A stretch of 64,000 bases of DNA from Allochromatium vinosum DSM 180 (lineage in GTDB: Bacteria > Pseudomonadota > Gammaproteobacteria > Chromatiales > Chromatiaceae): positions 1,155,154-1,219,153 of the forward strand of contig NC_013851.1 of assembly GCF_000025485.1 (NCBI RefSeq), written 5' to 3'. The position numbers were made by a program, and so were the translations under genes. Shown in pieces: positions 30,143 through 39,607 of the stretch. Position 1 is the stretch's first letter. The number at the start of each line of letters is the position of its first letter. The notes below the pieces were generated by a model. It was not told the DNA's origin, ran no database searches, and was given only the letters and a program-made list of their open reading frames with translations.

Positions 30143-31444
30143 ATGTCAGACACCTTTCTCGGTATACAGCCGATCTTCGACCGCGAACGACGCATCGTGG
30201 CCTATGAGTTGCTGTTTCGCAGCGCGGCCGCCGCACAGGCGTTCGACCACGGTTCGATCGACCCCGATCAGGCGACCTCGCAGGTCATCCTCAATGCTTT
30301 CATCGACATCGGTGTCGAGCATCTGGGAGACGACAAGCTGCTGTTCCTGAATCTGACCGAAGGCTTGCTGGCGAGCGAACTCATCCAGGCGCTACCGCCA
30401 GAGCGTGTGGTGCTGGAGATCCTGGAGACGGTGCGGATCACGCCCGATCTGGTCGAGTCGGCCAGACGGCTGGTGGAGCAGGGCTTTACCCTGGCGCTCG
30501 ATGATTTCATTTACACGCCCGAGTGGGAGCCGCTGCTCGCTCTGGCGCACATCGTCAAATTCGACGTACTCGATGACGACCATGCGGCGATCGCGGCCAA
30601 GATCGCCTCACTGCCGGCCGGGTATCGGCCGCGTCTGCTGGCCGAGAAGATCGAGACCCAGCAGCAGTTCCAGGATTGTCTCGGATTGGGCTTCGACCTC
30701 TTTCAGGGGTATCACCTCGCCCGACCCGAGGTGCTATCCGGCAAGCGGCCGCCGGCCAATTGCCTGCAAGCCTTGCGGCTGCTGGCACGTTTGCAGGACG
30801 AGACCATCAGTCTGCAAGAGGTCGAGCGCATCGTCAGTCAGGACGTCACCCTGAGCTATCGTCTGCTGCGCTTCATCGGCAATGCGGCGATCTCTCAGGG
30901 GCGGCCCATTCAGACCCTGATGCAGGCCATCACACTCGTCGGTCTGCGCACCGTGCGTCAGTGGGCGGCGCTCCTGGCCCTGGGCGCCCTGGATCTGGGC
31001 AATCCCTATAGCTTCACGCGCTCGCTGACCTATGCGCGCTTCTGTCAGATCGTCGGTGAACGTCACTTCAATGCCGAGAAAGACGCCCTCTTCACCGTGG
31101 GTCTCTTTTCCAATCTCGACGAGATTCTGTTGATTCCCTTGCGCGAAGCCCTGGAGCACCTGCCGCTCGATGCGCGTATCAAGCAAGCCATTCTCAAGCA
31201 CGAGGGCTTTCTCGGCGACGTGCTGGCGAAGGCCCAGCGATTCGAGGACGGCGATCGCACGGCCGAGGTGTCACTGCCAGGCCTGGGAGCCGAAACGCTC
31301 GCCATCTATTTTCTCGAAGCCTTTGCCTGGGCGCGCGATCTTCAGCGGCAGGTCGAGTCGAGCGATCGCGGCTCGCGCCCCCGGAGTCATCACGAATCGC
31401 GCAACGACCTCAGATCACAAGCACGACCACGCCGCCTAACATGA
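30143..31444 (+). CDS. EAL-HDOD signalling protein (YuxH/CdgJ type)
   Basis: Residues about 1-200 are a degenerate EAL domain: YELLFRSA keeps the first Glu, and LALDDFIY and KFDVLDDD are present, but the usual DDFGTG is lost, so phosphodiesterase activity is doubtful. Residues about 205-400 form an HDOD domain (LQALRLLARLQDET, then VTLSYRLLRFIGNAAI). Such proteins bind partners or nucleotides and control motility and biofilm formation. The basic C-terminal tail overlaps the convergent EamA gene by 35 bases. Confidence 0.9.
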   Translation: MSDTFLGIQPIFDRERRIVAYELLFRSAAAAQAFDHGSIDPDQATSQVILNAFIDIGVEHLGDDKLLFLNLTEGLLASELIQALPPERVVLEILETVRITPDLVESARRLVEQGFTLALDDFIYTPEWEPLLALAHIVKFDVLDDDHAAIAAKIASLPAGYRPRLLAEKIETQQQFQDCLGLGFDLFQGYHLARPEVLSGKRPPANCLQALRLLARLQDETISLQEVERIVSQDVTLSYRLLRFIGNAAISQGRPIQTLMQAITLVGLRTVRQWAALLALGALDLGNPYSFTRSLTYARFCQIVGERHFNAEKDALFTVGLFSNLDEILLIPLREALEHLPLDARIKQAILKHEGFLGDVLAKAQRFEDGDRTAEVSLPGLGAETLAIYFLEAFAWARDLQRQVESSDRGSRPRSHHESRNDLRSQARPRRLT

Positions 31445-35479: not shown

Positions 35480-38400
35480 ATGACCGACTCCACCGCCAAA
35501 CCGATTCGACTGGGACTCATGAGTCCGCTGACCGGCCTGGTCTCCATCTACGGACAGGAGATCGCCTGGGCCGGACGGATCGCCTGTGACGAGGTCAATG
35601 CCGCCGGCGGTGTCCTGGGCCGGACGCTGGAACTGGTCGTCGAGGACGACGGCAGCCTGCCCGAGACCGCCATACCGGCGGCCGAGCGTCTGGTCGACGA
35701 ACACGGATGCGTGGCCCTGATCGGCAATCTGCTCTCCAACTCACGCATCGCCGTGGCCAGTCAGGTCGCCGAGGTGCGTCAGGTGCCCTATCTGAACTTC
35801 TCGTTCTACGAGGGCAGCATCCAGAGTCGCTACTTCTTCCATTTCGCGGCCCTGCCCAACCAGCAGATCGCGCGCATGATTCCCTACATGGCGCGCGCGA
35901 TCGGACCCAAGATGTTCTTCGCCGGCAGCAACTACGAATGGCCGCGCGGCTCGATCGACGCGGCCATCCGCACCCTGCGCGATCTGGGTGGCGACGTGGT
36001 GGGCGAGGAATATCTGCCGCTGGGGAGTGCGCCGATCGACAAGCTCCTCGACCGTGTGCGCCGCTCGGGCGCGGACGTGTTCGTGCCCTATTTCGCCGGC
36101 ACCGAACAAGCGCGGTTGCTGACGCGCTTCTCCCAGCTCGGGCTCAAACGGCGCATGGCCGTGGTCATGGGACATTACGACGAGGCCATGGCCGCCACGC
36201 TCGCGCCCGAGGTGCGCGAGGGCTTCTATTCCTGCAACACCTATTTCATGGCGCTCGACACCCCGGCCAACCAGCGCTATCTGACGGTCCTGGCGGCACT
36301 CCCTGGGGTCTCGGGGATCTGGCCCGACGGCAACGGCGTGCTGACCAATTTCGGCGAGGGCGTCTATCTGTGCGTGCAGGCCTTCGCGCGCGCCGCCAAT
36401 CTGGCCGGTTCGCTGGAGACCCAAGCCCTGCTCGATGCGCTCGAGCACATCGAGATCGAGGGACCGCAGGGGCGGGTGCGCATGGACCCGGCGACCCATC
36501 ATGTGCACGTCAACACCTATCTGGCGCGTGCCACCTTCGAGGGACGCTTCGAGATCGTCACCGCCTTTGGATGTCTGCCGCCGCGCATCCCCGAGCGTTA
36601 TCGTCAAGTCACGGGGCCGGTCATGCCGTCTCTGCCGCAGATCCCCATCCTGGCCGCCGATACCGTGCCGGGTCAGGGGGGCTCGCCGGCGCGTGCGCCC
36701 GATGCCACCGACCGTATCCTGGCCAGCATCGACGTCGGTGTGCTGGCCGTCAGTGCCGATGGGGTCATCGTCGAGGCCAATCGGCGCATCGCCGAGATGT
36801 TCGGCTATGCGATCCGGGAGCTGATCGGGTTGCCGCTCCAGGAGCTGATCCCGCCGGCGTTCCGTCGCGCCCATGTGCTGCATGTCGAGCGATTCCTGCA
36901 TGGATCGGCATACGACCGGCGCATGAGCGAGCGCTCCGAACTCAGCGGCTATCGCAAGGACGGCTCGATCTTTCCGGTCGAGATCTCGCTGTCCAAGATC
37001 CAGGTCGACGGCCGCTGGGTGATGGTGGCGACCATCCTCGATGTCACCGAGCGCCGGCTCGCCGAGGAGGAACTGGTCTGGCATGCCATTCACGACCCAC
37101 TCACCGGCCTGCCCAACCGGACCATGATCCATGAGCGTCTGGAGCGCGCCCTGCGGCGCTCGAAGCAGCAGGGACAGAGTGTGGCCCTGCTGTTCATCGA
37201 TCTCGACGGCTTCAAGCTCGTCAACGACAGCCACGGTCATCAGGCCGGCGACGAGCTGCTCAAGACGGTCGCGCAGCGTCTGGTCGACCATGTGCGGCCG
37301 GGCGACACCATCGGCCGGCTCGGCGGCGACGAATTCGTGGTGCTCTGCGATCATGTCGAGAGTCCGGCGGCGGTCGCCAATCTCGCCGACCGGCTCAACG
37401 ACCTGCTGCGCGAACCCGTGACGCTCTCGGGACGGCGTCTGTTCGCCTCCGCCAGTATCGGCCTGGCCATCGGCCACGGCACCACGCACAGTGCCGACGA
37501 TCTGCTGCGCAATGCCGACGCGGCCATGTATCAGGCCAAGGAGCAGGGCCGCGACGGCTGGCGTTTCTTCAGCGAGGAGATCCACGAACAGGCGCGCCGG
37601 CGGCTCGACATCATCAACGGCCTGCGTCAGGCCATCGAACGCGACGAGTTCCAGGTCCGGTTTCAGCCCATCCTCTGTGCCCAGAGCCAGATCATCCGTG
37701 GGGCCGAGCTTCTGTTGCGCTGGTTCCCGAGCGGGGGCGAGGTCTCACCGGCGCATTTCATCCCCATCGCCGAGATGAGCGGCTCGATCGTGCCGATCGG
37801 CAAGTGGGTCTTCCGTCAGGCCTGTCTGGCCGAACGCCAGTGGCGCGACCGGTTCGGTGTCGAGGCGCCCTATGTGAGCGTCAACGTCTCGGCGCGCCAG
37901 CTCAACGATGAGGCCCTGGTCGAAGAGTTCCGCCGCATGCTGGCCGAGACCGGCGCCGATCCCGAGCGTATCCTGCTGGAGCTGACCGAGACCTCGCTGA
38001 TGAGCGATGTCATCTTCAACCTCAGCGTGCTGAATCAGCTCGCCGGACTGGGGCTGCGGGTGGCGGTCGATGACTTCGGCACCGGCTATTCCTCCTTGGC
38101 GCAACTGTTGCGCCTGCCCTTGAGCAAGCTCAAGATCGATCGCGAGTTCGTCGATGGACTCGACAAGCGCCACGACAGCCGCGCCATCGTGCATGCCGTC
38201 TGTAGCATGGCGCGCGCCATGAACCTCAAGGTGATCGCCGAGGGGGTGGAGAACGCCAGTCAGTTCGGCTATCTGCGTGATCTGGGGTGCGACTACGTCC
38301 AGGGGTTCCATTTCTATCGCCCGCTGCCGCCCGAGGAGTTCCTCGCCCTGCTGCACGAGACCAGCGCGACCGGGCGTCTGGCGGCCTCGGACGATCTCTA

Positions 38401-38854
38401 TTCGTTGCTCTATGTCAGCCAGGCCGCCCGTCCCATGGGCGAGTCCGAGCTGAAGGCGTTGCTCGAAAAGGCGCGCGAGTCCAATCGTGCCCAGGGCATC
38501 ACCGGATTCCTGCTCTATTTCAACGAGTCCTTCATGCAGGTCATCGAGGGACAGCGCGCGCGGGTGCGGTCGCTACTGGAGCAGATCCGGCGCGATCCGC
38601 GTCATCACGGTCTGCGGATCGTCTTCGAGGGCGGCATCCGGCAACGGGCTTTCGTCGGCTGGAGCATGGGCTTCCGCGACATGGAACACATCACCCATGC
38701 CCAGTTTCTCAGGGGCCACAATGGTCGGACGATCGACTTTCTCGAAATGGCCGAAGATCCGCGCGTCTGTTACAACTTCATGGCGGCCTTCGCGCCGGAT
38801 ACCAATCCGCTTCCGACAAGCTGGGGCGGGAGTCGGGACGATCCGCGACGCTGA
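35480..38854 (+). CDS. ligand-binding / PAS / GGDEF / EAL / BLUF cyclic-di-GMP protein
   Basis: This 1124-residue cytoplasmic multi-sensor has no signal peptide or membrane helix. About 8-385: type I periplasmic-binding-protein fold of the AmiC/urea/branched-chain amino acid kind (IRLGLMSPLTGLVSIYGQEI). About 407-525: PAS. About 535-700: GGDEF, with an intact GGDEF motif beginning at residue 615. About 715-960: EAL (Glu743 in GAELLLRW; DDFGTGYSSL, KIDREFVDG and EGVE intact). About 975-1070: BLUF, with Tyr978, Ser980, Asn1002, Gln1020, Trp1061 and Met1063, the same spacing as AppA Tyr21, Ser23, Asn45, Gln63, Trp104 and Met106. It should bind FAD and couple blue light and a small ligand to c-di-GMP turnover. 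Confidence 0.93.
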   Translation: MTDSTAKPIRLGLMSPLTGLVSIYGQEIAWAGRIACDEVNAAGGVLGRTLELVVEDDGSLPETAIPAAERLVDEHGCVALIGNLLSNSRIAVASQVAEVRQVPYLNFSFYEGSIQSRYFFHFAALPNQQIARMIPYMARAIGPKMFFAGSNYEWPRGSIDAAIRTLRDLGGDVVGEEYLPLGSAPIDKLLDRVRRSGADVFVPYFAGTEQARLLTRFSQLGLKRRMAVVMGHYDEAMAATLAPEVREGFYSCNTYFMALDTPANQRYLTVLAALPGVSGIWPDGNGVLTNFGEGVYLCVQAFARAANLAGSLETQALLDALEHIEIEGPQGRVRMDPATHHVHVNTYLARATFEGRFEIVTAFGCLPPRIPERYRQVTGPVMPSLPQIPILAADTVPGQGGSPARAPDATDRILASIDVGVLAVSADGVIVEANRRIAEMFGYAIRELIGLPLQELIPPAFRRAHVLHVERFLHGSAYDRRMSERSELSGYRKDGSIFPVEISLSKIQVDGRWVMVATILDVTERRLAEEELVWHAIHDPLTGLPNRTMIHERLERALRRSKQQGQSVALLFIDLDGFKLVNDSHGHQAGDELLKTVAQRLVDHVRPGDTIGRLGGDEFVVLCDHVESPAAVANLADRLNDLLREPVTLSGRRLFASASIGLAIGHGTTHSADDLLRNADAAMYQAKEQGRDGWRFFSEEIHEQARRRLDIINGLRQAIERDEFQVRFQPILCAQSQIIRGAELLLRWFPSGGEVSPAHFIPIAEMSGSIVPIGKWVFRQACLAERQWRDRFGVEAPYVSVNVSARQLNDEALVEEFRRMLAETGADPERILLELTETSLMSDVIFNLSVLNQLAGLGLRVAVDDFGTGYSSLAQLLRLPLSKLKIDREFVDGLDKRHDSRAIVHAVCSMARAMNLKVIAEGVENASQFGYLRDLGCDYVQGFHFYRPLPPEEFLALLHETSATGRLAASDDLYSLLYVSQAARPMGESELKALLEKARESNRAQGITGFLLYFNESFMQVIEGQRARVRSLLEQIRRDPRHHGLRIVFEGGIRQRAFVGWSMGFRDMEHITHAQFLRGHNGRTIDFLEMAEDPRVCYNFMAAFAPDTNPLPTSWGGSRDDPRR

Positions 38855-38935: not shown

Positions 38936-39607
38936 GTGGCAAAGACAAAAGCGATCTCGACCGATGACGTGTTGCTGATGCTGTGCACCTCCGTGAAGAA
39001 GGTACTCTCGGTCGCCACCCAGACCCAGATCAACTATTCGCCCATGGTGCAGAAGATCACCCGGACCTGTCTGCGACCCGACATCGGTTGCTTCGTGCTG
39101 TTCGACGGCAGTTTCTCGGGCCTGGTCATCATCAACTTCTCGGCACCGTCGGCCATGGAGCTCTATCGCGCCTATATGATGAGCATGGGGATGCCGGAGT
39201 CCGAGCTGGCCACCCAGCATACGTCCGAAGAGGTCGGCAACATGCTCGGTGAGCTGATGAATCAGATCGTCGGGGATTTCACGGGCAACGTGGGCAGTGA
39301 GCTGCTGGTCTCGATCAATCAGAACCAGCCCAAGATGCTCACCATCAACAAGGAAGTGGTGGTCAGTATCGATACCAACCTGGATCGTGCCCAGGCGCGT
39401 CGCGTCTCTTTCTCGACCGCCAATCGCAACGTCTTCTACATGGAGCTGGCGATGGATCGCACCGAGTTCATCCAGCTCCATGATTTCGAGCGTGAGGAAA
39501 TCGATCCCGACCGCATCGTCGATGAGGCCGGCCAGCGGGAGACACTGGCCAGCACGAGCAATCAGACGCTCGTCGATCAGAGCCTGCTCGACGAACTGGG
39601 GCTTTAG
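38936..39607 (+). CDS. DUF3334/CheX-like protein
   Basis: This 223-residue soluble protein lies 81 bases after the BLUF protein and starts at GTG (AGGAACC upstream). Residues about 20-170 resemble CheC/CheX phosphatase folds: IGCFVLFDGSFSGLVIINFS and SEEVGNMLGELMNQIVGDFT, the latter with an ExxN pattern like the CheX active site, then a second beta stretch. I assign it to the DUF3334 family from memory of length and sequence style. If CheX-like, it would dephosphorylate a response regulator. A strong hairpin follows. Confidence 0.68.
   Translation: MAKTKAISTDDVLLMLCTSVKKVLSVATQTQINYSPMVQKITRTCLRPDIGCFVLFDGSFSGLVIINFSAPSAMELYRAYMMSMGMPESELATQHTSEEVGNMLGELMNQIVGDFTGNVGSELLVSINQNQPKMLTINKEVVVSIDTNLDRAQARRVSFSTANRNVFYMELAMDRTEFIQLHDFEREEIDPDRIVDEAGQRETLASTSNQTLVDQSLLDELGL

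Follow-up and report, generated by a model that had tools for sequence, protein, structure and literature searches.

Like BldP of Allochromatium vinosum and M. marinus, the proteins BlrP1 of Klebsiella and YcgF/BluF of E. coli combine a BLUF and an EAL domain in one chain, but in the latter two the BLUF domain is N-terminal rather than C-terminal, and the BlrP1 chain, which is 413 aa long in the PDB, is too short to hold the three other domains of BldP. The original study of BldP is said to have described C-terminal EAL-BLUF modules as light-activated phosphodiesterases whose activation depends on oxygen, and reportedly the EAL-BLUF fragment of the A. vinosum protein was inactive while that of M. 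marinus, termed EB1, was active. EB1, which we take to be a fragment of the M. marinus BldP, serves as a tool in optogenetics. Other parts of BldP have their counterparts elsewhere. The PAS domains of E. coli DosP (PdeO) and of FixL are similar to that of BldP, aligned histidine included, and DosP, which has two PAS stretches, also matches BldP over GGDEF-EAL; to our knowledge neither DosP nor FixL has a BLUF or a binding-protein domain. The type I periplasmic-binding-protein fold of the BldP N-terminal domain is shared with UrtA, in which the pocket positions differ, and with AmiC, which is cytosolic like the BldP domain.

A review gives BlrP1 as a light-activated phosphodiesterase and, in the part of it that was available, tabulates BldP of A. 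vinosum and of M. marinus as blue-light-activated BLUF phosphodiesterases with FAD as chromophore, citing Ryu et al. 2017; the A. vinosum row has blue (+) as the response, PDE as the function and a mutant phenotype plus direct assay as the evidence, and EB1 is described as made from BldP (PMC8846402). The window analyzed here, a stretch of 64,000 nucleotides from A. vinosum DSM 180, contains an open reading frame of 1124 aa (35480–38854, + strand) that is almost certainly BldP, because it is the only ORF found in the A. vinosum genome with EAL and BLUF together. The genome has two BLUF matches, and its EAL listing holds no other EAL match near either of them. With high probability, then, the tabulated BldP is this very protein, the identity with the assayed enzyme resting on the species and on the uniqueness of the EAL-BLUF ORF. 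The core finding, blue-light control of c-di-GMP by an EAL-BLUF protein, is therefore already known. This was missed in a preliminary description of the locus made from the sequence, as was the resemblance of the PAS domain to those of heme O2 sensors. What is new beyond the review is the conservation of the full architecture, the heme-PAS likeness and the pocket of the N-terminal domain, while a model with three inputs is predicted only; neither the binding-protein nor the heme-PAS reading of BldP was found in the available part of the review (PMC8846402).

All features of the ORF are on the + strand, in the order binding protein-PAS-GGDEF-EAL-BLUF, and every Pfam domain call exceeds its gathering score. 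The preliminary description had placed the BLUF domain C-terminal to GGDEF and EAL and a cytoplasmic binding-protein domain, free of a signal peptide, at the N-terminus, and both proposals hold. The N-terminal domain (residues 8–352, 35501–36535) is a cytosolic type I periplasmic-binding-protein fold matched by Peripla_BP_6 with an E value of 2.4e-71. BldP is predicted to be a soluble, cytoplasmic protein. No signal peptide is present in the ORF, where the Pfam match begins at residue 8, nor in the stretch that separates the ATG from an in-frame stop 26 codons 5′ of it, which is not hydrophobic. No transmembrane segment is apparent in a scan of hydropathy, which is no dedicated predictor and whose top 19-residue value of 2.01 is located within the PAS domain.

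The BLUF domain (residues 973–1064, 38396–38671) matches PF04940 with 101.7 bits against a cut-off of 25, and its E value of 2.4e-29 rules out a chance resemblance. Its six photocycle residues, Y978, S980, N1002, Q1020, W1061 and M1063, are exactly where the preliminary description put them; they are invariant in all 21 BLUF members and are kept as well in the homologues L135 and L137. The cap-like C-terminal extension (residues 1065–1124, 38672–38851), into which the alignment with Slr1694 runs on, contains C1097, also invariant in the 21. The second BLUF match of the A. vinosum genome is a short frame of 261 aa (L001:1141-1923) that adjoins, by eye, an Amt-type ammonium transporter frame on one side, and a frame with an HD_5 domain begins 4 bases downstream of it.

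How widely this architecture is kept was seen in a scan of genome contigs, from which 80 of 323 relatives were taken into a comparison of loci. Among these 80, all five domains occur in the same order in 20 other loci, from Chromatiaceae, Rhodocyclaceae and their relatives, Hydrogenovibrio, Desulfamplus, Nitrospirae, Geobacteraceae and Myxococcota MAGs (one each for the last three). A further 18 have the N-terminal domain, PAS and GGDEF with no BLUF detected, a count that includes two loci reaching a contig end (L017 and L037), a 690-aa frame without EAL (L025) and a split frame (L021), and in five the N-terminal domain is part of a long frame that lacks GGDEF. Pfam places histidine kinase domains at the end of L030 and L063. 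In one genome compared here, which we take to be that of M. marinus MC-1, BLUF is matched three times, only once within a long frame, and this frame has a five-domain order identical to that of A. vinosum BldP.

Among 194 genomes of the window's family (Chromatiaceae by inference), BLUF is present in 76 (142 matches) and the N-terminal module in 19 (21 matches, E 1e-90), and all 21 of the module matches end in BLUF as judged by contig, strand and frame length. Frames of at least 1000 aa hold 22 of the 142 BLUF matches, and 21 of these 22 are the proteins with the N-terminal domain. A recent accidental fusion is ruled out, as the order recurs in the 20 other loci, in the presumed genome of M. 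marinus and in all 21 matches from the window's family, its own among them. In a sample of 398 genomes of the phylum the module was found in 18, namely in 16 of the 48 that belong to the same class as M. marinus (the class of G199) versus 2 of 350 others, one of these being A. vinosum itself. The 18 regions from this sample, with one match (G290) left out, comprise two with BLUF, three with GGDEF-EAL but no BLUF and 13 without detected GGDEF or EAL. Desulfamplus, like Magnetococcus, is magnetotactic. In a tree built from 44 rows of the N-terminal domain, in which many deep branches are weak, the presence of BLUF requires four changes, where shuffling the labels gives 15.1 on average, and this falls to two when L017, L025 and L037 are removed. 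A plasmid search gave only relatives below 60% identity (32% among the matches listed). The binding-protein module also heads long proteins without detected GGDEF-EAL (L136, L139, L141-L151, L030 and L063), of which L139 is a hybrid histidine kinase with receiver and Hpt domains by Pfam, and L144 is likewise hybrid by eye.

The PAS domain (residues 411–526, 36710–37057; Pfam PAS_9/PAS at residues 411–524) is of the FixL/DosP type. FixL and DosP are its best PDB matches both in a single-sequence search (8.2e-12 and 3.3e-11) and with a profile of 38 members (4.4e-19 and 7.6e-19), and the first clear non-heme match of the profile is a LOV domain at 4.9e-10, the sensor kinase 10jx (1.8e-15) being left aside. 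Residue H465 (36872–36874) aligns with a histidine of FixL (in RHEH) and of DosP (in RPAH) that we take to be the proximal heme ligand on the F helix. This column is His in 43 of 44 GGDEF-containing members (21/21 with BLUF, 18/18 BLUF-less and 4/5 additional); only L140, which has no BLUF, carries Asn there instead. The column is also His in one further row compared, which made the first comparison 40/40. An equivalent of H465 was seen in none of the eight relatives without the binding-protein domain that gave a PAS row (one being a gap), and in none of the 29 other PAS_9 matches of the A. vinosum genome (again one a gap) that with BldP itself made up the best 30 of 56, although the alignment of such distant PAS domains is uncertain. 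A distal arginine on the G strand is a further feature of the heme PAS domains of FixL and DosP. The BldP candidate for it, R485, never varies among the 21 BLUF members and lies one residue out of register with the FixL/DosP arginine in the PDB alignments. It was dropped as a heme marker because it does not discriminate, seven of the eight relatives without the binding-protein domain also having Arg in this column.

Since the distal arginine is out of register, the binding of heme by the BldP PAS domain through H465 is predicted only as likely. The main rival is a PAS domain devoid of heme, with the reputed oxygen effects arising from the redox state of the flavin or from an expression artefact. 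A histidine by itself is no proof of heme, L140 lacks it, the distal arginine is offset, and the flavin of a BLUF domain can undergo reduction, all of which counts in favor of this alternative. We nevertheless regard it as rather doubtful, as it is two heme proteins that lead the solved-structure matches by either search, and the histidine, kept nearly throughout the GGDEF-containing members, was found in none of the 29 further PAS domains of the genome that were compared. A heme-bound PAS is accordingly the reading we prefer, and it might explain why the activation of BldP by light reportedly depends on oxygen. BldP does not appear in the oxygen table in the available part of the review (PMC8846402).

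The GGDEF domain (residues 536–692, 37085–37555; Pfam 5.9e-49) and the EAL domain (residues 715–948, 37622–38323; Pfam 4.1e-67) differ in how well they have been kept. Both motifs had been called complete in the preliminary description, which is correct for GGDEF, found literally at 615, but residues 743–745 read E-L-L, a signature found in other members too. The catalytic residues are nonetheless intact, since all eight metal and catalytic positions of what we assume to be the relevant set (E, N, E, D, D, K, E, Q) are filled by E743, N802, E837, D864, D865, K885, E921 and Q941. The eight are complete in 20 of the 21 BLUF members, the exception being L006 with Lys for E921. In contrast, the literal GGDEF is altered in eight of the 21, to GRCEF in one of them (L012, the homologue of Thiocapsa imhoffii), and the protein from the presumed M. 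marinus genome has AGDEF and lacks the I-site Arg. This difference in retention points to phosphodiesterase activity as the output that has been retained. Values of dN/dS are below 0.45 for every domain and lowest in EAL and GGDEF when A. vinosum is compared with A. humboldtianum or A. palmeri, whereas most domains are saturated in the comparison with A. warmingii.

A bifunctional BldP that in certain input states acts on balance as a diguanylate cyclase would fit the A. vinosum protein, in which the GGDEF motif and the I-site (RPGD at 606, RxxD 606–609) are both complete. We consider it unlikely, given the altered GGDEF motifs alongside nearly uniform EAL residues, the state of the M. marinus protein, and a function that is given as PDE only in the available part of the review (PMC8846402). 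The earlier proposal that blue light and a solute together make or break c-di-GMP survives in part: control by light had already been reported and acts by breakdown, but the making of c-di-GMP has no counterpart in that entry (PMC8846402).

By sequence, the strongest PDB matches of the N-terminal domain are urea-binding UrtA, the extracellular receptor 8tg1 and amide-binding AmiC, with E values of 5.5e-37 to 2.3e-33 for UrtA/AmiC, and an AlphaFold2 model of residues 6–380 has a pLDDT of 93.7. It is the most conserved part of the protein, with a mean pairwise identity among the 21 members of 0.69, compared with 0.63 for EAL, 0.59 for GGDEF, 0.50 for PAS and 0.46 for BLUF. The urea site of UrtA consists, in the part of the source available, of Trp120, Ser122, Tyr141, Gln144, Glu146, Tyr190, Asn246 and Ser274 (PMC10392092). 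Read from a phmmer alignment in which Ser274 falls in a gap without a partner, three of these are kept in BldP (Ser122 as S86, Glu146 as E111 and Tyr190 as Y152) and four are replaced (Trp120 by L84, Tyr141 by F107, Gln144 by F109 and Asn246 by A206). The set of residues with which UrtA binds urea is thus not present in the BldP domain, and urea was rejected as its likely ligand. With the split frame L021 left out, which leaves 43 rows, L84, F107 and F109 are found in every row and A206 in all but one, and E111, E153, W154, H232 and D234 are likewise conserved in all 43. Such near-invariance indicates that, as judged from its residues, phosphodiesterases and kinases share a module with a single specific pocket. 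The lack of a signal peptide, the highest conservation and a pocket unlike that of UrtA together suggest that the ligand is probably a specific cytosolic compound. The small solute of the preliminary description is upheld to this extent, strong pocket conservation being its sole support, but not as a UrtA-type urea ligand.

A pointer to the origin of the module is a binding protein of Desulfarculaceae (L047:2898-4280) with a Pfam TAT signal and about 51% identity to the N-terminal domain of BldP. It has mostly the same pocket motifs (F107 is W and F205 is E), and its gene is directly 5′ of two branched-chain amino acid-type permease genes. This Tat-exported relative adjoining permease genes suggests that the module probably descended from an ABC importer, and its operon could reveal the ligand. 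XRE-cupin-like regulators were seen by eye upstream of the gene. Searched against the 398 genomes of the phylum at E 1e-70, the L047 protein found only frames of 549–1164 aa and no stand-alone exported version. Clustering of the genes around the 44 loci showed no neighbor recurring across lineages, and around the 18 kinase-type loci it gave no ligand clue recurring across lineages. The only transporter lead is a TRAP system (DctP, DctQ, DctM) that adjoins the BldP-like gene upstream on the opposite strand in three Desulfamplus loci (L011, L014 and L017), with Pfam confirming DctP and DctM in L011 and DctQ in L017. That the domain is a mere structural or dimerization scaffold that has lost its ligand would suit the replaced UrtA positions and the want of a transporter or amide/urea gene recurring nearby across lineages, but is improbable for the best conserved of the five domains, whose segments aligned with the urea site are nearly invariant, which also stands at the head of histidine kinases and which has a Tat-exported relative heading an ABC operon.

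The explanation that best covers the whole, and that we hold to be highly probable, is that BldP is a phosphodiesterase with EAL as its output, GGDEF as an accessory, a heme PAS domain for oxygen and the N-terminal domain for a metabolite. Blue light would switch on the phosphodiesterase through the C-terminal BLUF domain, the activation and the activity itself being published according to the available part of the review (PMC8846402). The EAL domain would be the output, with GGDEF probably serving as a secondary or allosteric site. The PAS domain would bind heme through H465 and set the enzyme by oxygen, and the N-terminal Venus-flytrap would close on a specific cytosolic metabolite and bias the same dimer. 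The light-lowered c-di-GMP would favor motility over attachment in a phototroph that meets gradients of light and oxygen. As a reading of BldP the three inputs (light, O2 and metabolite) are plausible. A broader version, in which flytrap, heme PAS and BLUF act as integrator on one phosphodiesterase and the flytrap is in addition a general cytosolic sensor that occurs in histidine kinases too, binds the same conserved ligand everywhere and is employed by phototrophs as well as magnetotactic bacteria, is tentative and falls somewhat short of being probable. If the PAS domain is heme-bound and the N-terminal domain binds a metabolite, then the parent enzyme of EB1 would be a natural logic gate, and the heme would give the reputed oxygen effect a molecular cause. 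A cytosolic binding-protein domain that binds a metabolite would be an unusual input for c-di-GMP enzymes, since domains of the PBP clan are described as periplasmic, with only SBP_bac_3 studied in c-di-GMP networks, in the available part of the review (PMC8846402).

Two neighbors of bldP in the window may be mentioned. An EAL-HDOD protein is encoded at 30143–31444, about 4 kb upstream, its EAL match being partial (profile positions 86–236), and a DUF3334/CheX-like protein is encoded directly downstream (38936–39607) and has relatives in L004, L005 and L006.
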